From positions 124,001-188,000 of the forward strand of contig JAPOVT010000003.1 in assembly GCA_026708015.1 (NCBI GenBank): a DNA stretch of 64,000 nucleotides, in the 5' to 3' direction. Every line of letters starts with the position of its first letter. The first letter of the stretch is position 1. Origin of the DNA: a bacterium. Its GTDB lineage: Bacteria > Actinomycetota > Acidimicrobiia > Acidimicrobiales > Bin134. The notes beneath the pieces are model-generated. The model saw nothing but the letters and a program-made list of their open reading frames with translations. It was not told where the DNA came from and made no database searches. Position numbers and translations under genes: made by a program. Shown here piece by piece: positions 36,801 through 48,103 of this stretch.

Positions 36801-36879
36801 GCTGGTACGAATGTGCCGCACTACGTGGCACGCAAAACTTTCATTTGCTGATATATAAGCTGCTCATTAGCTGGTACGA
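36801..36879. repeat. Direct repeats in the promoter region of the DUF4143 ATPase
   Basis: GCTGGTACGA occurs at 36801-36810 and 36870-36879, each followed by an ATGTG sequence; between them GTGCC-9 nt-GGCAC forms an inverted repeat (36813-36831). The stretch is more AT-rich than the flanking genes. It may be an operator region for the next gene. Confidence 0.6.
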
Positions 36880-36895
36880 TAAATGTGTGTCCTAC

Positions 36896-38185
36896 ATGCC
36901 GCGGCTGATGGAAAAACGGTTGGCCAGAGCGCTGGCCACCTCGCCGGCCGTGTTGTTGCAGGGAGCGCGGTATGTGGGCAAGACAACTCTGGCTCAGAGG
37001 TTCGCCGCGTCCGACCTTGATCTATCCAACGAGATGGACGCGGACTCCTTGGAGTTGGATCCCCTGGGTTGGCTCCGCCAGTCGGCGAAGCCAGTGCTGG
37101 TTGACGAGTGGCAGATGCGCCCGCAGACCCTCTGGACGATCAAGAACTTGGTGGACAAGGAGAAGGCATCGGGATTCATCATCGCGGGCTCAGCCGGATA
37201 CTCAGCGGCGAGCGGTTTCAAGCAGTTCCCCTTGACCGGGCGCTGCGACATCTTCCGGTTGCGGCCCATGTCGCATGCCGAACGGCTGGGGGTTACCCCC
37301 AAACCGCTTGCAGACACCCTCTTCAACTGCTCAGGGGAATGGGGCAACCCCGAGTCCATGGAACACAGGGCCTACATGGATATCGCCCTCCGCTCTGGCT
37401 ACCCCAGCCATGCGGGCCTAGACGAGCATGAGGCTGGTCTTGCCCTGCGTCGCATCACCCGAGACATCATCGAAACCGACATCGTCCGGTATCAGACGAG
37501 GAGGGATTCGGCGGGCACGCGTAGCGGATTGGCTCGGTTCATAGCTGCCTATGCCGGGTACAGCGGCCGCATAGTCGATCTGCTGAGCATCGCGAAGGCC
37601 GCAGGCCTCAACTACAAGACTGCGTCCAAGTATCGCGACATGTACGACAACTCGTTCCTGCTCGATGAATTGCCCATCTGGAGGCCGACCGCAGACTCGC
37701 AGGGGTTTCGCCATCCGAAGCGGTTGCTCAGCGATCCTGGCCTCATGGCCCCGCTCATTGGGGTAAGCAGACAGCAGATGCTGGCTTCGCCGCAACTGCT
37801 CGGGGGGCTCGTTGAAACATTCGTTCACGCCCAGCTGTGCGCTCAGCAGGCAGTGGCCGAGAAGCGGTACGAGATCGAGTGCTACGACCTGCGGCGGTCC
37901 AGCCGCGCTAGTAGCGCCATAAGGGAATACCCGCTCGGGGAGATCGATTTCGTGTTGAAGTCCACTAGCCGGTCAGCCATCGCGGTTGTCGAGGTGAAGG
38001 CGAGGAACCGGGTGAAGAGAGAAGACGCCGACCGGATCATCGCGCTGCGCGATGCCATGGATTCCGACAGTCATGCACACTGCGAGTTCACCTCGGGCGT
38101 TGTGCTCTGCTGTGGCGACATCCAGCCCGTACTCATCAGCGACAGAATCTGGGCAGCACCGATGTCAGTCCTTTGGACACCGTAA
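36896..38185 (+). CDS. AAA-type ATPase with DUF4143 C-terminal domain
   Basis: About 429 residues from ATG 36896; a GTG at 36887 or an ATG at 36845 are alternatives. The P-loop is LLQGARYVGKTTLAQRFA (commonly GARQVGKTT), Walker B is PVLVDEWQMRPQ, and the C-terminal half has the DUF4143 pattern YAGYSGRIVDLLSIAKAAGLNYKTASKYRDMYDNSFLLDELP, then GEIDFVLKSTSRSAIAVVEVKA, a nuclease-like DxExK-type motif. The family is widespread and often horizontally acquired; its function is poorly known. It stands alone between the rhomboid-like gene and a transporter operon. Confidence 0.88.
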   Translation: MPRLMEKRLARALATSPAVLLQGARYVGKTTLAQRFAASDLDLSNEMDADSLELDPLGWLRQSAKPVLVDEWQMRPQTLWTIKNLVDKEKASGFIIAGSAGYSAASGFKQFPLTGRCDIFRLRPMSHAERLGVTPKPLADTLFNCSGEWGNPESMEHRAYMDIALRSGYPSHAGLDEHEAGLALRRITRDIIETDIVRYQTRRDSAGTRSGLARFIAAYAGYSGRIVDLLSIAKAAGLNYKTASKYRDMYDNSFLLDELPIWRPTADSQGFRHPKRLLSDPGLMAPLIGVSRQQMLASPQLLGGLVETFVHAQLCAQQAVAEKRYEIECYDLRRSSRASSAIREYPLGEIDFVLKSTSRSAIAVVEVKARNRVKREDADRIIALRDAMDSDSHAHCEFTSGVVLCCGDIQPVLISDRIWAAPMSVLWTP

Positions 38186-38269: not shown

Positions 38270-39493
38270 ATGGCACAGGTGGGCGATGACATCATCGTCC
38301 TGGACGGCGTTTACAAGATTTTCGGTCCTCAGCCCGGCGGCCGAGCTTTTGAACTGGCCAGCTCAGGGATGGGCAAAGACGAAGTTCAGGCCGAGACCGG
38401 TCACGTGGTGGGCCTGCACGATGTGTCTTTCTCGGTGCCCAGGGGAGAGATTTTCGTCGTAATGGGCTTGTCTGGATCGGGCAAGTCCACCGCTATTCGC
38501 ACCGTCAACAAGCTCCACGACATCACTGCTGGCACCGTCACAGTCGAGGGCATCGACGTGCAGTCTCTCGAAGGTTCAGAACTTCAGGCTTTCCGCAGGA
38601 GCCAGATGGGGATGGTGTTCCAGCACTTCGCACTGTTCCCCCACCGCAACGTCATCGACAATGTGAGCTACGGCCTCAAGGTGCAGGGCGTGGACAAGGC
38701 CGCCCGCAACGAATCGGCCATGCGGGCTTTGGCGTTGGTTGGCCTCGACGCCTATTCGCAGAACATGCCGGCCGAGCTCTCAGGCGGGATGCAGCAGCGG
38801 GTCGGTCTGGCCCGAGCACTGGCATCGGATCCCGAAATACTGCTGATGGATGAGGCCTTCAGTGCCCTCGACCCGCTGATCCGCCGCCAGATGCAGGACG
38901 AGCTGCTGGAAATACAGAGCGAGCTTCACAAAACCATCCTGTTCATCACCCACGACCTCAATGAAGCGCTGCGCATCGGCGACCGGGTCTGCATCATGAA
39001 AGACGGCACCGTCGTGCAGATCGGCACGCCCGAGGAGATTCTCACCGAGCCAGCCACCGGATACGTGGCTGAGTTCGTGCAAGACGTCGATCAGGGCCGA
39101 GTCATCCAGGTACACGAGGTGATGCAAAAGCCGGCACCCGTTGTCCCCACCGCTACCATCGCTGCGGCCCTCGGTGCGATGGGCGACCGCATTGGCGCTT
39201 TCGTGTTAGATGCCGCGGGCGCGCCCACGCACTTGCTGACCGTTGAAGACGCGGCTCGGGCCGCCAGCATGGGCACCACCGATTTGGGACCTGCTTTGCG
39301 CACCGACTTTGAGCGCTGCGGCCCCGACGACCGGCTCAACGAGGTTTACGCCGCCGCTGGCCGCGGCCTTTCCATCGCAGTGTGCGACGAATCAGGGGCG
39401 CTGGTCGGGAATCTTGATCCCCGTCACATCATGGAAGAAATGGGCCGGGTCGAGAACCTGATCGATGGTTTCGAGAGAGAGGTATTCCTGTGA
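38270..39493 (+). CDS. proV: Glycine betaine/proline-type ABC importer ATPase (ProV/OpuAA)
   Basis: 407 residues. Walker A GLSGSGKSTAIRTVNKL, Q-loop QHFALFPHRNVIDNV, signature LSGGMQQRVGLARALA, Walker B ILLMDEAFSALDP and H-loop FITHDLNEAL are intact. A long C-terminal extension from about 275 resembles the tandem CBS domains that sense ionic strength in OpuA. The start of the domain has a short insertion (FELASSGMGKDEVQAETG) before Walker A. It overlaps the permease start by 4 nt (GTGA). Confidence 0.92.
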   Translation: MAQVGDDIIVLDGVYKIFGPQPGGRAFELASSGMGKDEVQAETGHVVGLHDVSFSVPRGEIFVVMGLSGSGKSTAIRTVNKLHDITAGTVTVEGIDVQSLEGSELQAFRRSQMGMVFQHFALFPHRNVIDNVSYGLKVQGVDKAARNESAMRALALVGLDAYSQNMPAELSGGMQQRVGLARALASDPEILLMDEAFSALDPLIRRQMQDELLEIQSELHKTILFITHDLNEALRIGDRVCIMKDGTVVQIGTPEEILTEPATGYVAEFVQDVDQGRVIQVHEVMQKPAPVVPTATIAAALGAMGDRIGAFVLDAAGAPTHLLTVEDAARAASMGTTDLGPALRTDFERCGPDDRLNEVYAAAGRGLSIAVCDESGALVGNLDPRHIMEEMGRVENLIDGFEREVFL

Positions 39494-41811
39494 GCCTGCT
39501 GGCCCAGTCGGAGTCCCCCGGTATTGCCGACAACGAGGTCCTCGACCAGTGGACGATTCCGTTCGGCGAATGGGTCAAGCAGATGGTCAATTGGACCGAT
39601 CTCAACCTGGACTGGTTCCTCGATATCGTCGAGTGGCCCTTCACCTTCCTGTTCCGCAACTTTGTTGATGGTCCCAACCACCATCCCTGGTGGGAGATCA
39701 CCGATATGCCGTGGATCGCAGTTTGCCTCATCTTTTTTGTGATCGGCACGCTGACCCGCAACGTGAAGGTTGGCGGGTTTGTCGCGTTGGCGCTAGCTGG
39801 CTGCGGGCTGCTCGGCATTGAATACTGGGATGACACAGCGTTGACATTGGGCATGATCATTGTCGCCGTCGCACTCTGCGCCCTTATCGGCATTCCCCTC
39901 GGTGTCCTTTGTGGCCGGTTCGATGGAGTGTGGAATGCCGTGCGCCCTGTGCTCGACGCGATGCAAGTTGTCCATGCGTTTGTGTACATGCTGCCGATCG
40001 TCTTCTTCTTCGGCATCGGCACCGAACCGGCCACGATGGTCACCATGGTGTTTGCCCTCCCGCCGCTAATTCGTCTCACCAACCTTGGAGTCAGACAGGT
40101 GCCCGCGGATGTCGTAGAGGCCAGTCGGGCCTACGGGGCACCCGAGTGGCGCGTACTGCTAGATGTCCAGCTTCCACTGGCGCGTCCCGCAATCATGACC
40201 GGACTCAACCAGACGTTGCTGTTGTCTATCTCCATGCTGGGCATCGCCGCAATCATGGGTGCGGGCGGATTGGGCTTCCAGGTTTATAGGGGGGTCCAGG
40301 CGCTAGACGTTGCTCTATCCGCTTCGAGCGGTCTGGCTCTGTTCATCGTCGCAGTGGTGCTCGACCGCATCTCTCAGACTGAGGAGAGTGATGGCCAGAA
40401 CCTCTTTACACGCATCCGCCGGGCCTGGGCCCATCGTCGCGACCCCGAAGCACTGCTTCCTCAGGCATCGTCGATCAGCGCCGTGGCCAAGACGAGAAGC
40501 CACCCGGCTCCGCTGTCGGCAGCCGAGCACCGCTTCTTGGCAATCGTCGCCGCCGGCGCCCTCGTTGCTGTTGTTGCCGTGTTCTTACCATGGGGGAGTG
40601 ACTCGGGAAGGATTTCCGGTTATGCCAGGTTGGTTGACACCGGACGATACGAGTACGTCGAGGTTGATCCCGAGAGGTTCCCTGGGATGGTCGAGCTTCA
40701 GGAAGCGAGTGTCGACCCGCCCGCCGAACATGCCCAAGAGATTGCCGTGCTCGATGCCCAGATAAGTGCCGTGATCGTCGCGGCGGGGGCTGAGGGGGTG
40801 ACAGACGAAGAGACCATCTCGGCCATTGCCGATATTGGGGATGAGATCGCGCTGCTTTCTAATCCTTTAGCAGGCCGTAGCTACCGTGGTTTAGATGCAA
40901 CCGGTGGATCCTTCTACGGCATCATGGTGTTCGGTTTCGCCTTGTTGATCCTTGCTGCGGTTGTGACCAATCTGAGACGACCAGGTGGAGATATTCGCCT
41001 GTTTGGGTCAAATGGTGTCGTGGTGCTTGCCGTTGGGTCCCTGGCTGCGGCGATCGCCTATGTCTGGGCGCCGGCAGCATCGGCCAACGTCACACATAAC
41101 ATGGGAGTCGGTCCGTGGGTCGCCGTTGTGGGTGGGGTGGTAGCGACCCTGGGCGCACTGGCCTGGCTTAGGGAGGCACCCTATGCAGCCCGCACCCCAC
41201 TGAGAGCCGGTGTTTCGTACCGCCAAATCAGTGTGGTTGCCCTTGTTGCGGCGCTAATTGTCATAGCTGGGTTCTCGGGATGGTCCTTCGATCAGCGCGT
41301 CGAGTCCGTTGTCTCACCAGAGCTTCAGGCACAAGTTTCGGCTCTGGAGCAGCAAGCAGAGAATACTGACGATCCAGCAGTCGAAGCTCGTATAGCTCAA
41401 GAGATCATCGCACTGTACAGCGAGGCTCAACGGACCGAGAAGATCGTCATTGACGGCTTTGCAGATGGTGGCAGCAAGTACGGCTATCTCGCTATCGCCT
41501 TCAGCATCGTCGGCATCGCCTGTGTGCTACCTGCTGCCGGGGTCTTCGGCAGCAATGAGCAAAGGCGACGGCGCTGGAACGCAGTGGTTGCAGGCGTCGG
41601 CGTCAGTCTGATGGTTGTGGCGTCGGCGTGGATTGCGTCGCTGCTCAGGGTGGCCGATCTCAAGTTCGCTAGCGGCGCAGGAGCGTTCATTTGCCTGGTC
41701 GCGGGGTTCCTTCTCATGGCGAGCACAGCCGGTGTGCTGACGAAATTCGGTCGATCACAGGTGTATGTCTCTGTCGATGAGCCGGAAGGAGCAACGGCCG
41801 ACATCGGGTAA
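39490..41811 (+). CDS. proW: Betaine-type ABC importer permease with long C-terminal membrane extension
   Basis: 773 residues from GTG 39490. The first about 310 residues are the ProW/OpuAB-like permease with the EAA-type loop VVEASRAYGAPEWRVLLDVQLPLARPAIMTGL. After residue about 340 comes a roughly 430-residue extension with several membrane helices and two polar domains (one with DPPAEHAQEIAVLDAQISAV). No similarity for the extension is recognised. Typical ProW is 300-350 residues, so this is a fusion with an unknown envelope domain. Confidence 0.85.
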   Translation: MSLLAQSESPGIADNEVLDQWTIPFGEWVKQMVNWTDLNLDWFLDIVEWPFTFLFRNFVDGPNHHPWWEITDMPWIAVCLIFFVIGTLTRNVKVGGFVALALAGCGLLGIEYWDDTALTLGMIIVAVALCALIGIPLGVLCGRFDGVWNAVRPVLDAMQVVHAFVYMLPIVFFFGIGTEPATMVTMVFALPPLIRLTNLGVRQVPADVVEASRAYGAPEWRVLLDVQLPLARPAIMTGLNQTLLLSISMLGIAAIMGAGGLGFQVYRGVQALDVALSASSGLALFIVAVVLDRISQTEESDGQNLFTRIRRAWAHRRDPEALLPQASSISAVAKTRSHPAPLSAAEHRFLAIVAAGALVAVVAVFLPWGSDSGRISGYARLVDTGRYEYVEVDPERFPGMVELQEASVDPPAEHAQEIAVLDAQISAVIVAAGAEGVTDEETISAIADIGDEIALLSNPLAGRSYRGLDATGGSFYGIMVFGFALLILAAVVTNLRRPGGDIRLFGSNGVVVLAVGSLAAAIAYVWAPAASANVTHNMGVGPWVAVVGGVVATLGALAWLREAPYAARTPLRAGVSYRQISVVALVAALIVIAGFSGWSFDQRVESVVSPELQAQVSALEQQAENTDDPAVEARIAQEIIALYSEAQRTEKIVIDGFADGGSKYGYLAIAFSIVGIACVLPAAGVFGSNEQRRRRWNAVVAGVGVSLMVVASAWIASLLRVADLKFASGAGAFICLVAGFLLMASTAGVLTKFGRSQVYVSVDEPEGATADIG

Positions 41812-41913
41812 ACCGGGGCGGCTCTTGTGACCTTGGGACCATTCAACTAGCGTTCTGATTGCCAGCTTCAGGCATTTCTCCGTTGGCGGGAGAAAACAAC
41901 TATGGAGGGAAAA

Positions 41914-43080
41914 ATGCTGATGAAGAAGCATTGGAAGGTTTGGTTTGCACTGTTTGCAGCAATTGCTTTGGTTGTTGCTGCTTGTGGCAATGATGGCGGC
42001 GTCTCGCCCCGCGGGCCAGCCGGTGATGCGCCGGCGGAGGATGCTCCGGCGGCTGATGACGCGCCGGCGGCTGATGACGCTCCGGCGGAGGATGCTCCGG
42101 CGGCTGTCGAGGTGAATATGACGCCTGGTGAGGGTGTCAGTGTGACGATGGCTCGGGCGAACTGGAGCACTGGCTATTTCCAGGCGGCTATCTATCACCA
42201 CCTGCTGGAGGAGCTGGGCTATGGCGTGAGCGAGCCTGCGGATATTGAGCTTGCGCCTTCGAACGCGTACGTGGCTATGGCTGAGCGCGAGTTCGATTTC
42301 TGGGCCAATTCTTGGTATCCGAACCACGATCCGTTCATTGCGGGCGAGATGCCCGATGGCTCTTTGGTGAGCGATCACGTGTCGAAGGTGGGCCTTGAGG
42401 CTGAGCGCGGCGGCATCGAGGGCTTGTTGACCAACAAGTCGCTGGTGGAAGAGCACGGCATCAGAACTCTTGATCAGCTCGTGGGAGACGAGGATCTGTT
42501 CGAGCTGTACGAGGCGGCCGACATTGAGCCCGGTGATGGGGTGCTCCAGATTTATGGGTGCCCCGACGGTTGGGGATGCAATCTGTTCATTGCCGGCCTG
42601 ATTGAAGACAAGGGTTGGACCGGCAGGGTCCAGCAGGTTGAGGTGGGCGGCTACGACGCCACTTTCGCCGACGCAGTCGACCGCGCTGGCAGCGGCACCC
42701 CGTTCATCGCGTACACGTGGAGCCCGAGCTTCTATACGAACCACATCGGGCCTGGTGACCAGGCCATGTGGCTGTCGATAGACGGGGGTGCGCCCACCCT
42801 GCTCGGCACCGATGTCTGCACAGATGATCCGTGCAACCTCCTCATCACCGCTGACATCCAGGTGACGGCCAACAACGACTTCCTTGTCGAGAACCCGGCG
42901 GCGGCGACGCTGCTGGAGCAGGTGAAGATCAGCGTGGTTGACATCGCACTGCAGAACGCGCGCTACGACACCGGCGGCGAGAACACCACCGCTGATGTCA
43001 ACCGCCACGCCGCCGAGTGGATCGCCGACAACCGCGACACCGTCGACGCCTGGCTCGCCGCAGCCCGAACCGCAGGCTGA
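41914..43080 (+). CDS. proX: Glycine betaine-type ABC binding lipoprotein (ProX/OpuAC)
   Basis: 388 residues from ATG 41914 (GGAGGG at 41904-41909; ATG 41920 is an alternative). Signal peptide with lipobox VVAACGN, then an Ala/Glu/Asp/Pro-rich linker of repeated PAEDA/PAADDA units. The mature domain begins VTMARANWSTGYFQAAIYHHLLEELGYGVSEP, the OpuAC/ProX pattern, with aromatic residues FWANSWYPNHDPF and FIAYTWSPSFYT suited to quaternary-amine binding. It follows the permease gene by 102 bp. Most of its DNA is duplicated 2.5 kb downstream. Confidence 0.9.
   Translation: MLMKKHWKVWFALFAAIALVVAACGNDGGVSPRGPAGDAPAEDAPAADDAPAADDAPAEDAPAAVEVNMTPGEGVSVTMARANWSTGYFQAAIYHHLLEELGYGVSEPADIELAPSNAYVAMAEREFDFWANSWYPNHDPFIAGEMPDGSLVSDHVSKVGLEAERGGIEGLLTNKSLVEEHGIRTLDQLVGDEDLFELYEAADIEPGDGVLQIYGCPDGWGCNLFIAGLIEDKGWTGRVQQVEVGGYDATFADAVDRAGSGTPFIAYTWSPSFYTNHIGPGDQAMWLSIDGGAPTLLGTDVCTDDPCNLLITADIQVTANNDFLVENPAAATLLEQVKISVVDIALQNARYDTGGENTTADVNRHAAEWIADNRDTVDAWLAAARTAG
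42027..43073 (+). repeat. 1,047-bp direct repeat, copy 1
   Basis: This stretch, from the linker repeats to the final codons of proX, appears identical base for base to 44548-45594 at an offset of 2,521 bp. Divergence starts at both ends at once: at 42026/44547 and 43074/45595. All lines I compared matched. A shared 27-bp patch in the signal peptide just before copy 1 suggests the match is older and longer. Confidence 0.95.
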
Positions 43081-43125
43081 CGTTTCAAGCGCTCGAAATC
43101 AGGCCTTAGGGCTTGAAGGACGAAT

Positions 43126-43153
43126 GAGGGGCGGGGCTTTGGCCCCGCCCCTC
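43126..43153. terminator. Strong GC hairpin after proX
   Basis: GAGGGGCGGGGC-TTTG-GCCCCGCCCCTC is a perfect 12-bp stem with a 4-nt loop 45 bp after the proX stop, before the convergent ureohydrolase. No T-tract follows, so it may act as an intrinsic-like terminator in both directions or as an mRNA stabiliser. Confidence 0.8.
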
Positions 43154-43209
43154 ACCGCGTGCGGAAGCGTGGGATTGGTAGGCACGCCTGCGGGAGTGAA
43201 TGCGGAAAC

Positions 43210-44238
43210 TTAAGGACGGTTGAAGTTTCGGTCGGCAATCAGGCTGAGGATCTCAAACATCACCGACATCGAGCGGTAGCTGGTGATCTGGTTGGGTAAG
43301 TCCACCGTCGGCATCAGGCAGACCACGTCGCCGCCGATCACGTTGCGGCCCCGCATCGAACGGATGAGCTCCATGGCCTGGTCCATCCCGAAGCCGTCGA
43401 TGCCGGCCTCGATATTGGCCACGCCCGGTGCCACCGTCGGGTCGAGGCAGTCGAGATCGAATGTGATGTACACCGGCCGGTCGCCGATGCATTCGTGGAT
43501 GGTCTCGATCACCCTCTCGGCGCCCATTTGGTCGTAGTCGGACTTCTTGATCACCTCGTAACCGAGCGCGTAGCTGGGCTCGAGCCAGTCGAGGCTGCGA
43601 GTGTTGCCCCGAATGCCGACCTGCACGCTGTGCTCGGCGTCGACGTGGCCGTCGGTAACCAGATAGCTGGCCCAGTGGGCGGCCGACTTGATGGCTCCCA
43701 TGAAGTGGGGGATGTTGTGAAAGGCGTCGGTGTGGGCGTCGAAGTGCAGCAGGCAGGCCCGCTCGCCTCCGGTGAGGTTGGCCTCATGGCCACCGATGGC
43801 CTGCAGGATGCCCCCGGTGATGGAATGGTCGCCGCCGATGGACACCGGCCGCGCCCCGGCTTCGTCGATCGACTGGTAGAAATCGGTGATCATCTCGATG
43901 GAGCGCTCGTTGTTGTTGCCCTCCGACAACGGCACATCGCCCAGATCGTTGATGCGGCACATCTCCCACGGATCGATGCCGAACTGGCCGTGGACCCGCC
44001 TGCCGATGGCTGAGACGTCCCGCACGGCCCGGGGGCCAAGATGTTGGTCGCGCTGGGTCGTGCCGTTACCGGTGCTATGGGGCACGCCCACAAGGGCGAT
44101 GTCGGCGTTTTGGGGGTCGGGGTCGTACTCGCAGCGGAACAGCGTCGGAATGCCATACCAGTAGATCCCGTCCATGAGCCGCTGCTCGTCTGACCGGGAG
44201 GAGGTGCGGGCGGCAGCTTGTTCGGAAGCGATCGTCAT
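43210..44238 (-). CDS. Ureohydrolase (agmatinase/guanidino-acid hydrolase family)
   Basis: 342 residues. Metal-binding motifs GGDHSITGG, HFDAHTDAF and TFDLDCLDPTVAPG are intact, as expected of binuclear Mn enzymes that release urea from agmatine, guanidinobutyrate or related compounds. An N-terminal MARTS-like arm (SEQAAARTSSRSDEQRLMDGIYWYGIPTLF) resembles guanidinobutyrase-type enzymes. It is convergent with proX and divergent from the chimeric binding-protein gene. Confidence 0.9.
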   Translation of the reverse strand: MTIASEQAAARTSSRSDEQRLMDGIYWYGIPTLFRCEYDPDPQNADIALVGVPHSTGNGTTQRDQHLGPRAVRDVSAIGRRVHGQFGIDPWEMCRINDLGDVPLSEGNNNERSIEMITDFYQSIDEAGARPVSIGGDHSITGGILQAIGGHEANLTGGERACLLHFDAHTDAFHNIPHFMGAIKSAAHWASYLVTDGHVDAEHSVQVGIRGNTRSLDWLEPSYALGYEVIKKSDYDQMGAERVIETIHECIGDRPVYITFDLDCLDPTVAPGVANIEAGIDGFGMDQAMELIRSMRGRNVIGGDVVCLMPTVDLPNQITSYRSMSVMFEILSLIADRNFNRP

Positions 44239-44446
44239 GAACGACTTCTACCACAAAAGGCCCAGTCGGCCGTTCAGGAATTGGTCGCGCTCCCCTAACG
44301 AGGAGCAGGAACGGACCCCGTATCAGTCTGGAACGTTCTTCTTGGAGTCTCTAGCGTTCAAGCCTGGTTTGGTTTAGGGTGTGGCCCCTAGGCGGATTGG
44401 CGCGCGCTGAGGCGGGCCAATCTTGACTTCAATTGGAGGGTTACCA

Positions 44447-46525
44447 ATGAGAGAGCGAAACCTTTGGAGAGTTTTGCTAGCTATTTTTCTGGTCTTCGGG
44501 CTGGTTGTTGCTGCTTGTGGCAATGATGACGATGACGAGCCGGGGGCTGCGCCGGCGGAGGATGCTCCGGCGGCTGATGACGCGCCGGCGGCTGATGACG
44601 CTCCGGCGGAGGATGCTCCGGCGGCTGTCGAGGTGAATATGACGCCTGGTGAGGGTGTCAGTGTGACGATGGCTCGGGCGAACTGGAGCACTGGCTATTT
44701 CCAGGCGGCTATCTATCACCACCTGCTGGAGGAGCTGGGCTATGGCGTGAGCGAGCCTGCGGATATTGAGCTTGCGCCTTCGAACGCGTACGTGGCTATG
44801 GCTGAGCGCGAGTTCGATTTCTGGGCCAATTCTTGGTATCCGAACCACGATCCGTTCATTGCGGGCGAGATGCCCGATGGCTCTTTGGTGAGCGATCACG
44901 TGTCGAAGGTGGGCCTTGAGGCTGAGCGCGGCGGCATCGAGGGCTTGTTGACCAACAAGTCGCTGGTGGAAGAGCACGGCATCAGAACTCTTGATCAGCT
45001 CGTGGGAGACGAGGATCTGTTCGAGCTGTACGAGGCGGCCGACATTGAGCCCGGTGATGGGGTGCTCCAGATTTATGGGTGCCCCGACGGTTGGGGATGC
45101 AATCTGTTCATTGCCGGCCTGATTGAAGACAAGGGTTGGACCGGCAGGGTCCAGCAGGTTGAGGTGGGCGGCTACGACGCCACTTTCGCCGACGCAGTCG
45201 ACCGCGCTGGCAGCGGCACCCCGTTCATCGCGTACACGTGGAGCCCGAGCTTCTATACGAACCACATCGGGCCTGGTGACCAGGCCATGTGGCTGTCGAT
45301 AGACGGGGGTGCGCCCACCCTGCTCGGCACCGATGTCTGCACAGATGATCCGTGCAACCTCCTCATCACCGCTGACATCCAGGTGACGGCCAACAACGAC
45401 TTCCTTGTCGAGAACCCGGCGGCGGCGACGCTGCTGGAGCAGGTGAAGATCAGCGTGGTTGACATCGCACTGCAGAACGCGCGCTACGACACCGGCGGCG
45501 AGAACACCACCGCTGATGTCAACCGCCACGCCGCCGAGTGGATCGCCGACAACCGCGACACCGTCGACGCCTGGCTCGCCGCAGCCCGAACCGCTACCGA
45601 GTACACACCGCCGCCCCCGCCGCCGCCTCCGGCACCCTTCCGTGTCGCGGTGGTGGCACCTAGCGCTAGCAATGACTTGGCGTTCACTCAGAGCATGTTC
45701 GATGCGGTGACCGCCCTTGTTGATTCCGGGGAGATCTCGGAGTTTGCCATCACCGACGGCACCTTCATCGTGGAAGATGCCGCCGCAGCCATTCGGGGCT
45801 ATGCCGAGGATGGCTACGACCTGGTCATCGCTCACGGTTCCCAGTACGGCGGCCCGCTCCAGGAGATCGCCCCGGACTTCCCGGATGTATCGTTTGCTTG
45901 GGGGACCGCGGTCGACACCTTCGGACTTCCCAACGTGAACTCCTACTCGGTGCGCTCCGATCTCGGCGGCTATGTCAACGGCGTAGTGGCCGCTCAACTC
46001 ACGGAGAGCAACGTGATCGGCGTGGTCGGCCCGATCGAGGTGGGCGACGCCAAGCTCTATGTCGACGGGTTCGCCGCCGGAGCCACGGCGCAGAATCCCG
46101 ACGTCGAGGTCAACATCGTCTACACCGGTTCGTTCGCCGATGTGGCATTGGCCGCAGAAGCCGCCCAGTCGCACATCTCCGCCGGTGCCGACGTGCTGAC
46201 TGGTTCGGCCCAGATGGTGGTGGGCGCCACCGGCGTTGCCCAGGAGAACGACGTGTTGTGGTTCGGCACCCAAGCCAACCAGACCGCCCTCGGTGAAGAC
46301 ATCGTGGTTGCCTCACAGGTATATCGCTGGGAGGTCATCCTCTCTGAGGTGGTCGATCAGGTCAAGGGCGGCACCTTGGGTGGCACGACCTTCATCATGA
46401 CCTTCGATGGTGGAGGACTGGACATTCAGTTCAACGACGCCATGGACATCCCCGCCGATGTGCTTGCCTCAGCCGAGGCGACCATCGCTGGCCTGTCCGA
46501 CGGGTCAATCTCCACTGGGCAGTAA
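44447..46525 (+). CDS. Chimeric double substrate-binding lipoprotein (OpuAC-type + BMP/PnrA-type)
   Basis: 692 residues from ATG 44447 (GGAGGG 6 nt upstream). Signal peptide with lipobox VVAACGN, the same acidic Pro/Ala linker as proX, then an OpuAC-type domain that is the same protein sequence as proX (DNA identical). After RTATEYTPPPPPPPPAP comes a BMP/PnrA-type domain: FRVAVVAPSASNDLAFTQSMFDAV, GYAEDGYDLVIAHGSQYG, NSYSVRSDLGGYVNGVVAAQL and VYTGSFADVALAAEAAQSHISAGADVLTGS. Two different ligand-binding domains on one lipid anchor is unusual. The next gene is a BMP-type ATPase. Confidence 0.9.
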   Translation: MRERNLWRVLLAIFLVFGLVVAACGNDDDDEPGAAPAEDAPAADDAPAADDAPAEDAPAAVEVNMTPGEGVSVTMARANWSTGYFQAAIYHHLLEELGYGVSEPADIELAPSNAYVAMAEREFDFWANSWYPNHDPFIAGEMPDGSLVSDHVSKVGLEAERGGIEGLLTNKSLVEEHGIRTLDQLVGDEDLFELYEAADIEPGDGVLQIYGCPDGWGCNLFIAGLIEDKGWTGRVQQVEVGGYDATFADAVDRAGSGTPFIAYTWSPSFYTNHIGPGDQAMWLSIDGGAPTLLGTDVCTDDPCNLLITADIQVTANNDFLVENPAAATLLEQVKISVVDIALQNARYDTGGENTTADVNRHAAEWIADNRDTVDAWLAAARTATEYTPPPPPPPPAPFRVAVVAPSASNDLAFTQSMFDAVTALVDSGEISEFAITDGTFIVEDAAAAIRGYAEDGYDLVIAHGSQYGGPLQEIAPDFPDVSFAWGTAVDTFGLPNVNSYSVRSDLGGYVNGVVAAQLTESNVIGVVGPIEVGDAKLYVDGFAAGATAQNPDVEVNIVYTGSFADVALAAEAAQSHISAGADVLTGSAQMVVGATGVAQENDVLWFGTQANQTALGEDIVVASQVYRWEVILSEVVDQVKGGTLGGTTFIMTFDGGGLDIQFNDAMDIPADVLASAEATIAGLSDGSISTGQ
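44548..45594 (+). repeat. 1,047-bp direct repeat, copy 2
   Basis: Second copy of the OpuAC-type domain DNA, offset 2,521 bp from copy 1. It ends at GAACCGC, where the first copy continues to a stop codon and this one to the polyproline linker. The lack of any observed synonymous change points to very recent duplication or gene conversion. Confidence 0.95.
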
Positions 46526-46546: not shown

Positions 46547-48103
46547 ATGAATACTGACTCGGCGGCGCCGAGGCCAGCACCGATGCTGGAGATGCGCGGT
46601 ATTACCAAGCGCTTCCCCGGCGTGGTGGCCAACGAAGACGTTGACTTCACGGTGCTGCCGGGTCAGGTTCATACTCTCTTGGGAGAGAACGGGGCCGGCA
46701 AGAGCACCCTGGTGAAGATCCTCTACGGGCTCTACCAGCCCGACGAGGGGTCGATCACCTTCGACGGCACACCGGTGAGCATCGACTCGCCCTCGGTGGC
46801 GATTGAGACCGGCATCGGAATGATCCACCAGCACTTCATGCTGGTGGACACCCTGACCGTGGCCGAGAACGTGGCCCTGGGGCTGGGCACACCGCTCAGT
46901 CTGACCAACCTCCAGCCGATTCGTGGGCGAATCCGGGAGGTGTCTGAGGAGTTCGGCCTGCACGTCGATCCCGATGCCTATATCTGGCAAATGGCGGTCG
47001 GAGAGCGGCAGCGGGCCGAGATCGTCAAGGCGCTGTACCGAAACGTGAGGCTGTTGGTGCTGGACGAGCCCACCGCGGTGCTCACCCCTCCCGAGGTTTC
47101 CGACTTGTTCGTCACCCTCCGCCAGCTCAGCTCTGATGGAAGAGGACTGGTGTTCATCTCCCACAAGCTGAACGAGGTGATGGAGATCTCCGACGAGATC
47201 ACGGTTCTGCGCGACGGCAAAGTCTCGGGGCGCACCACCCCTGCGGAGTCCAGCAGGGAGTCGCTGGCCATGATGATGGTGGGTCGCCCGGTGGAGTTCA
47301 CCCGCACCCTTGCCGAACAGGAGCCGGGCGATCCCAAACTGGAGGTAAAAAACCTCCGGGTCCGGGGCGACCGGGAGGAACTTGCGGTGCGCGATGTGAA
47401 CATCGACGTGCGAGCCGGCGAGATCGTCGGGATCGTGGGGGTGTCGGGCAACGGGCAGCGAGAATTGGCCGAGGCTATCGTCGGGTTGCGGGAGATTGAG
47501 TCGGGCGAGGTGTTCATCAACGGCCAACCGGTGAAGACCCCGACCCCCAAGCAGGTGCGGTCGATGGGCTTGGCTTACGTGCCCGAGGAGCGCATGAAGT
47601 ACGGCAGTATCGGCGACTTCACCGTGGCCGAGAACCTTGTTCTGGTGAACTACGACCAGTCGCCCTACGCGCGGAGCGGGTTGCTGAGCCTTCGCACTAT
47701 CGAGAGCCACAGCGAGCAGCTCGTCAGCGACTACTCCATACGCACGCCGAGCACTGAAACCCTCACCCGCAAGCTGTCGGGAGGCAACATCCAGAAAGTT
47801 GTGATTGCCCGTGAGTTCAGCGGCAATGCTGAGATGCTGCTGGTGGCCCAGCCCACCCGGGGAATCGACATCGGCGCAGCCGAGTACATCCACGAGCAGC
47901 TGCTCACCCAGCGTACGCAGGGCAGGGCCATCTTGTTGATCAGCGAGGATTTGGACGAGGTAATGGCGTTGTCCGACCGGCTGGTGGTGATGTACGAGGG
48001 GTCGGTGATGGGTCGGGTAAGCCGAGAAGAGGCCACCGTCGAGCAGGTGGGCCTATTGATGAGCGGCGTAGGCGAGCCGGAGGGTGCTGCGGTAACGGGG
48101 TAG
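46547..48103 (+). CDS. BMP-type (nucleoside/simple sugar) ABC importer double ATPase
   Basis: 518 residues with two ATPase domains, as in MglA/YufO. Domain 1 has Walker A LLGENGAGKSTLVKILYG, signature MAVGERQRAEIVKALY and Walker B LLVLDEPTAVLTPPEV; domain 2 has GVSGNGQRELAEAIVG and signature LSGGNIQKVVIAREFS. Such ATPases serve BMP/PnrA lipoproteins with two permeases. No permease genes follow; a tRNA and a sigma gene lie downstream. It starts 22 bp after the chimeric binding protein, consistent with a partner role. Confidence 0.93.
   Translation: MNTDSAAPRPAPMLEMRGITKRFPGVVANEDVDFTVLPGQVHTLLGENGAGKSTLVKILYGLYQPDEGSITFDGTPVSIDSPSVAIETGIGMIHQHFMLVDTLTVAENVALGLGTPLSLTNLQPIRGRIREVSEEFGLHVDPDAYIWQMAVGERQRAEIVKALYRNVRLLVLDEPTAVLTPPEVSDLFVTLRQLSSDGRGLVFISHKLNEVMEISDEITVLRDGKVSGRTTPAESSRESLAMMMVGRPVEFTRTLAEQEPGDPKLEVKNLRVRGDREELAVRDVNIDVRAGEIVGIVGVSGNGQRELAEAIVGLREIESGEVFINGQPVKTPTPKQVRSMGLAYVPEERMKYGSIGDFTVAENLVLVNYDQSPYARSGLLSLRTIESHSEQLVSDYSIRTPSTETLTRKLSGGNIQKVVIAREFSGNAEMLLVAQPTRGIDIGAAEYIHEQLLTQRTQGRAILLISEDLDEVMALSDRLVVMYEGSVMGRVSREEATVEQVGLLMSGVGEPEGAAVTG

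Follow-up and report, generated by a model that had tools for sequence, protein, structure and literature searches.

Importers of the ProU/OpuA type (ProX, structure 1r9l; OpuA, PMC11065425) have a substrate-binding domain of the OpuAC family with a tryptophan cage, and proV and proW as neighbours. Those of the BMP/PnrA type (structure 3s99; AtzT, 6pi5; the NCBIfam "putative B6 ABC transporter", where ABC denotes ATP-binding cassette) combine a BMP domain with a double ATPase and two permeases of the BPD_transp_2 family. Two substrate-binding domains of different specificities are found in one chain in GlnPQ-type importers, where, within the part of the account used here (PMC8025302), both domains serve, and are fused to, one translocator. 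Paralogues that are closer within a genome than orthologues are between species are known from tufA and tufB; in the portion of that literature drawn on here (PMC6053082), this concerted evolution is explained by gene conversion and partly by fit to common partners. Here, we describe a locus in a 64,000-nucleotide stretch of a genome of the class Acidimicrobiia (referred to as the window; contig JAPOVT010000003.1, positions 124,001 to 188,000), in which an OpuAC domain is found both in a stand-alone proX lipoprotein and fused, via a proline-rich linker, to a BMP domain.

The locus shares the OpuAC domain, the tryptophan cage and the proV-proW neighbours with ProU/OpuA importers, but here OpuAC is fused to BMP, duplicated and exchanged between species with proW. 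With BMP/PnrA importers it has in common the BMP domain, the double ATPase, the two permeases and the ancestral gene order; in contrast, the operon is split by an inversion, the receptor is fused to OpuAC and the scores fall under the NCBIfam cut-offs. As judged from the GlnPQ account cited above, the similarity ends at the two binding domains in one chain, because here each domain comes from a different importer, the two being unrelated, and both reside on a free lipoprotein. Unlike in the tufA/tufB case, to the extent described in the cited portion, a single domain is shared by a stand-alone and a chimeric protein, and its homogenization is coupled to cassette exchange. Neither an OpuAC-BMP fusion nor an inversion-born binding-protein fusion was found in searches of the open literature. 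Taken as a whole, the locus is probably explained by a fusion born from an inversion, followed by cassette exchange and gene conversion, with the product acting as a double receptor.

The genome that harbors the window (G000; other G numbers denote relatives) comprises 3.51 Mb in 67 contigs, and the window sits in a contig of 221 kb. The original prediction stated that the OpuAC sequence occurs twice without a base difference in the stretches compared, with breakpoints inside linker repeats at one end and at the last codons at the other. A base-by-base comparison at an offset of 2,521 yielded 1,047 bp with 0 mismatches, the first differing bases being found at 42026 and 43074, i.e., within the Ala/Pro/Asp linker repeats on the left and in the last codons of proX on the right (GCA GGC TGA vs GCT ACC GAG). 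A genome-wide search identified only these two copies. Copies a few per cent apart can be merged by a short-read assembler, and the absence of differences may therefore be slightly overstated; the existence of two copies is backed by related genomes, including those assembled as single contigs. That the fusion joins domains from different importer classes agrees with Pfam: the OpuAC domain (6.6e-28 in the fusion) scores 100.1 and 98.4 bits in the two copies against a gathering threshold of 21.2, and the BMP domain scores 129.5 bits against 24.1.

The relatives that bear names, Candidatus Poriferisocius among them, are for the most part metagenome genomes of sponge and marine Acidimicrobiia. 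Within the genus, 15 further genomes encode BMP orthologues, at 82-95% identity (~90% overall). The domain is fused to OpuAC in G000, G001, G010, G011, G012, G013, G015, G019, G020 and G021, and, as judged by contig ends, in G003 and G005 (12 fused genomes in all); a contig of G018 begins inside the same linker. A BMP protein devoid of OpuAC, for which the original prediction suggested looking in related genomes, does occur: G004, G007, G009 and G014 each encode one that carries its own leader. The OpuAC halves of the fusions across the genus are 42-96% identical to that of G000, and the fusion is old and genus-wide. BMP was not found in G002, G006, G008, G016 and G017, some of which are incomplete bins, and only as a fragment in G020. 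Among the matches listed from 395 genomes of the class, no OpuAC-BMP fusion was found outside the genus; all 20 of the candidates checked, selected as matches reaching into the linker or lying in long frames, were BMP alone, BMP-BMP or OmpA-BMP. Other Acidimicrobiia encode BMP-BMP tandem proteins of ~690-760 residues (L231, L232, L233 and L050, in G438, G266, G275 and G076) as well as proteins of 860-990 residues with an OmpA-family domain ahead of BMP (L235-L237, in G424, G374 and G315; the OmpA match was tested in L237). In the small genome G016 (L096), where BMP and its ATPase are absent, proV-proW-OpuAC is located directly beside a sigma factor gene.

The origin of the fusion is seen in the gene order. 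Outgroup families and unfused members of the genus share the order permease 1-permease 2-BMP-ATPase, and its presence in the outgroups identifies the unfused order as ancestral. In fused genomes where both are on one contig, the permease pair, 93-95% identical, is found 25-40 kb from BMP and in the opposite orientation. The block from BMP to an amidohydrolase gene is collinear between G000 (169.6-197.2 kb) and the single-contig genome G007 (1,096.0-1,127.3 kb), and its flanks are swapped: the proV, rhomboid-like, sulfatase and monooxygenase genes have traded places with the permeases. The same swapped-flank order is seen in comparison with single-contig G014, and G001, G012, G015, G019 and G021 agree. 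The fusion arose at the junction of this 28-37-kb inversion. Breakpoints differ in G003 and G005, where permease 2 is followed by proV-proW; in G003, the OpuAC fused to BMP (as judged by contig ends) comes after the rhomboid-like gene. In these two genomes, ~70 bp of the sequence found ahead of BMP where the genes are unfused persist behind permease 2, now before proV (none of 300 shuffles was as good). The OpuAC-OpuAC tandems of G007 and G018 are connected by the linker of the joint as well (ASGFTPAPAPEP or ATEYT...), so that the linker by itself is compatible with either a single or a repeated origin of the fusion. Recombination between inverted repeats in the linker DNA was considered as a trigger of the inversion; with no more than 11-12 bp in common in G007 and G014, no homologous repeat is proposed.

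The original prediction took the identity of the two OpuAC copies as the trace of a recent duplication that created the chimera; the exact duplication and the fusion stand, while the origin proposed for the chimera does not, and the identity is better explained by later conversion of older copies. Within-genome OpuAC identity is 99.9% in G000, 99.6% in G021, 99.5% in G007, 98.0% in G018 and 97.4% in G014, with 82-95% to the nearest other species. As is characteristic of concerted evolution, paralogues of one species resemble each other more than they do their counterparts in other species, and this extends to third codon positions. Where the four copies of G000 and G021 differ, 45 sites pair by genome and 0 by position. 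The single-contig genomes G007 and G014 display exact cores of 901 and 809 nucleotides with diverged edges, and the cores of G014 and G018 (846 nucleotides in the latter) lie between edges that are diverged and homologous (0 of 5,000 shuffles). An exact core between diverged edges is the signature of conversion, not of a new duplicate. The pattern strongly supports gene conversion as the presumed source of the within-genome identity, and the 1,047-bp repeat as its tract. Unhomogenized pairs are also found: the OpuAC copies of G015 and G017 are 84-92% alike. A locus of G015 (L034, L084) encodes two OpuAC-OpuAC proteins, the second partly unassembled, alongside an OpuAC-BMP protein; up to five OpuAC copies, one of them unassembled, are deduced for this genome. 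The first OpuAC copy of G021 (L037:6269-8221) has a different C-terminal tail of ~250 residues without a Pfam match.

The sister of G000 in a tree of ten genes outside OpuAC is G018, in which the agmatinase-like gene is found at the same place (96% identical in amino acids and 93-95% in nucleotides); the two-copy layout is thus older than the identity of the copies. Both OpuAC copies of G000 are 95% identical to the more distant G021 and 76% to the sister. Along the locus, identity between G000 and G018 is 84-91% in proV, 60-79% in proW and most of the first OpuAC, 93-95% in the agmatinase-like gene, 68-79% in most of the second OpuAC and ~89-93% in BMP. The corresponding values for G021 are 85-95% in proW, 96-97% in both OpuACs and 86-89% in BMP; overall, proW of G000 is 92% identical to that of G021 and ~67% to that of the sister. 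The locus thus reads as a mosaic: two G021-like OpuAC tracts, separated by older sequence, are embedded in a G018-like frame. It is most simply explained by uptake of a proW-OpuAC cassette and subsequent conversion of the second copy; alternatively, two separate imports from one donor type may have occurred.

Pairwise protein distances point to the same coupling. Those of ProW and OpuAC are correlated (r = 0.94; 0.85 within class II, see below), those of OpuAC and BMP are not (r = 0.13, below zero within class II), and the flanks behave like BMP, without covariation with ProW-OpuAC. Two classes of proVW-OpuAC are found, ~42-47% alike in OpuAC and 60% in ProV; proV of G000 is 89-97% identical to class II genomes and ~60% to class I. 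In close relatives both classes precede near-identical BMP genes (G003 and G005 vs G012 and G019). These data show that proW and OpuAC have moved between species as one cassette and that OpuAC domains have multiplied inside the locus. The ratio of nonsynonymous to synonymous substitutions (dN/dS) in the pairs compared is 0.00-0.13 for BMP and the permeases (BMP 0.05-0.13), at most 0.19 for the ATPase and 0.07-0.45 for OpuAC. BMP and its permeases are under purifying selection. The low values indicate that the fusion protein is maintained, with a variable, exchangeable OpuAC half, and this selection rules out the suggestion in the original prediction of a fresh, non-adaptive accident.

A number of observations weigh against the explanation by inversion, exchange and conversion. 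The two arrangements (G003 and G005 vs the rest) allow one or more inversions, and fusion state, arrangement and OpuAC class change several times on the trees, which requires recombination between species or repeated origin. A fresh duplication would also yield identical copies in G021. Most of the genomes are draft metagenome bins in which several contigs end inside OpuAC; those of G003, G005, G012, G013, G015, G018 and G019 end in or near it, as expected of true repeats, so that copy numbers in these genomes are lower bounds. The predicted structure of the fusion (from seven sequences; mean predicted local distance difference test score, pLDDT, 44.6) was not used.

Among alternatives, the one that survives best is that no conversion took place and each lineage duplicated OpuAC afresh, with loss of older copies. 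In its favor, the exact repeat that the first OpuAC copy of G021 shares with the BMP fusion spans 1,206 bp, leader and upstream DNA included, and OpuAC copy number varies widely. This alternative is nevertheless unlikely, because the two copies in G000 differ in leader and tail and lie on either side of the older agmatinase-like gene common to the sister species, and because of the exact cores between diverged edges in G014 and G018. An assembly artefact, i.e., a second copy or a copy identity made by the assembler (repeat collapse, bubble merging or a chimeric contig), is suggested by the draft state of G000, by contig breaks inside OpuAC in other genomes of the genus and by the tendency of short-read assemblers to merge near-identical variants. 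However, such breaks are expected of a true repeat, the single-contig genomes G007 and G014 contain near-identical OpuAC pairs, the separately assembled G021 has its own exact pair, and merging cannot change a 76% copy into a 95% one; this explanation is very improbable. A similarly small probability is given to a neutral by-product, in which the BMP half lost its importer because the permeases were left behind: the permeases are indeed distant and inverted, and BMP is missing from, or fragmentary in, the genomes listed above, but BMP, ATPase and permeases keep dN/dS values of ~0.02-0.2 after the inversion and the permeases are at least 90% conserved in fused genomes. Creation of the chimera by copying of a 1,047-bp proX segment into the linker of a BMP lipoprotein fits the exact identity and the sharp edges, one of them in the linker, but can virtually be dismissed because the fusion is found in many species with divergent OpuAC halves, its junction coincides with the inversion breakpoint, and the sister species has the same arrangement of two copies with the agmatinase-like gene.

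Regarding function, the OpuAC copies are ProX-like by score and fall short of filing as ProX, with 201 and 199.8 bits against a cut-off of 215 for the NCBIfam equivalog (NF008334). The nearest solved structure is that of E. coli ProX (1r9l, E 2.3e-31). Residues W65, W140 and W188 of the OpuAC chain align with W138, W224 and W273 of 1r9l, the three tryptophans of the ligand cage, and are kept in every OpuAC copy except G015_soloB. This similarity suggests a betaine-like ligand. The solved structures nearest to the BMP domain are 3s99, whose ligand is adenine, and the atrazine-type binding protein 6pi5. The models of the putative B6 transporter (NF047927/28/29/30) gave 84/400, 185/465, 160/400 and 516/670 bits, all below the curated cut-offs (the permeases tested being those of G007); the BMP ligand may be nucleobase-, nucleoside- or B6-like. 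The fusion contains a leader, OpuAC and Bmp only, a transmembrane transporter domain was not found in it, and it therefore does not qualify as a GlnPQ-type importer with tandem binding domains. A likely role is that of one anchored lipoprotein serving two importers. In G000, the fusion gene is divergent to the agmatinase-like gene and must therefore have a promoter of its own; proW directly precedes it in G010 and G011.

The features of the locus are collected in Table 1. A DUF4143/AAA_14 ATPase gene (36845-38185) is inserted between the rhomboid-like gene and proV, where compared relatives have no room for it. The ProW protein (39490-41811) extends ~470 residues past the permease domain, and there the divergence from the sister species is greatest.

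Table 1. Features of the OpuAC-BMP locus (window positions unless a contig is given)
Feature	Position	Strand	Evidence
proV-like ATPase (ABC + CBS), class II	38270..39493	+	Pfam; NCBIfam TIGR01186 proV 348.6 bits, above cut-off
proW-like permease, long C-terminal membrane extension, part of exchanged cassette	39490..41811	+	PF00528
Stand-alone proX lipoprotein (type A leader + OpuAC)	41902..43080	+	PF04069 2e-28
Copy 1 of exact 1,047-bp repeat (probable conversion tract), most of proX gene	42027..43073	+	
Agmatinase-like gene between copies	43210..44238	-	PF00491; NCBIfam agmatinase below cut-off
OpuAC-linker-BMP fusion lipoprotein, 692 residues, type B leader, lipobox VAAC	44447..46525	+	
Copy 2 of exact repeat, OpuAC half of fusion	44548..45594	+	
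Fusion joint, proline-rich linker ATEYTPPPPPPPPAPF, inversion junction	45595..45637	+	
BMP/PnrA-type domain	45638..46522	+	PF02608 1.6e-37; nearest solved structures 3s99, 6pi5
Double-ABC ATPase of BMP importer, after fusion gene	46547..48103	+	
Two BMP-importer permeases, beyond window	G000:C3:197417-199476	-	

The history that we propose starts from an ancestor in which a BMP-type importer (permease 1-permease 2-BMP-ATPase) and a ProU-type importer (OpuAC with proV-proW) faced each other at a distance of 31-37 kb. As the gene order shows, inversion of the intervening stretch joined a leaderless BMP frame, in frame, behind OpuAC. This yielded one OpuAC-linker-BMP lipoprotein, with the BMP ATPase next to it, and stranded the permeases 25-40 kb away in the opposite orientation. 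Later, the cassette of proW and OpuAC was swapped among species, OpuAC copies multiplied in the locus, and copies in the same genome were very probably made identical by gene conversion. The fused protein may act as a membrane-anchored double receptor, the OpuAC half delivering a betaine-like solute to ProVW and the BMP half a nucleobase-, nucleoside- or B6-like solute to its own permeases and ATPase. Conversion would be favored because both OpuAC copies must dock on one ProW, such that the second copy would have to follow once proW and its OpuAC have been replaced.

From the above discussion we tentatively suggest, as a possibility that falls somewhat short of even, that the OpuAC half of this genus-wide double receptor is an exchangeable specificity module that moves with the matching ProW, where conversion matches all copies, that in the BMP fusion included, and thereby keeps two importers coupled, physically and in their evolution, via one lipoprotein. 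The mechanism of fusion is still readable, with the ancestral order in single-contig relatives, the inverted order in fused genomes and the old upstream sequence kept at the vacated site in two species. Because the pair has been exchanged together, and the extra copies apparently overwritten to fit, the locus can serve as a natural experiment on the need for binding protein and permease to match.

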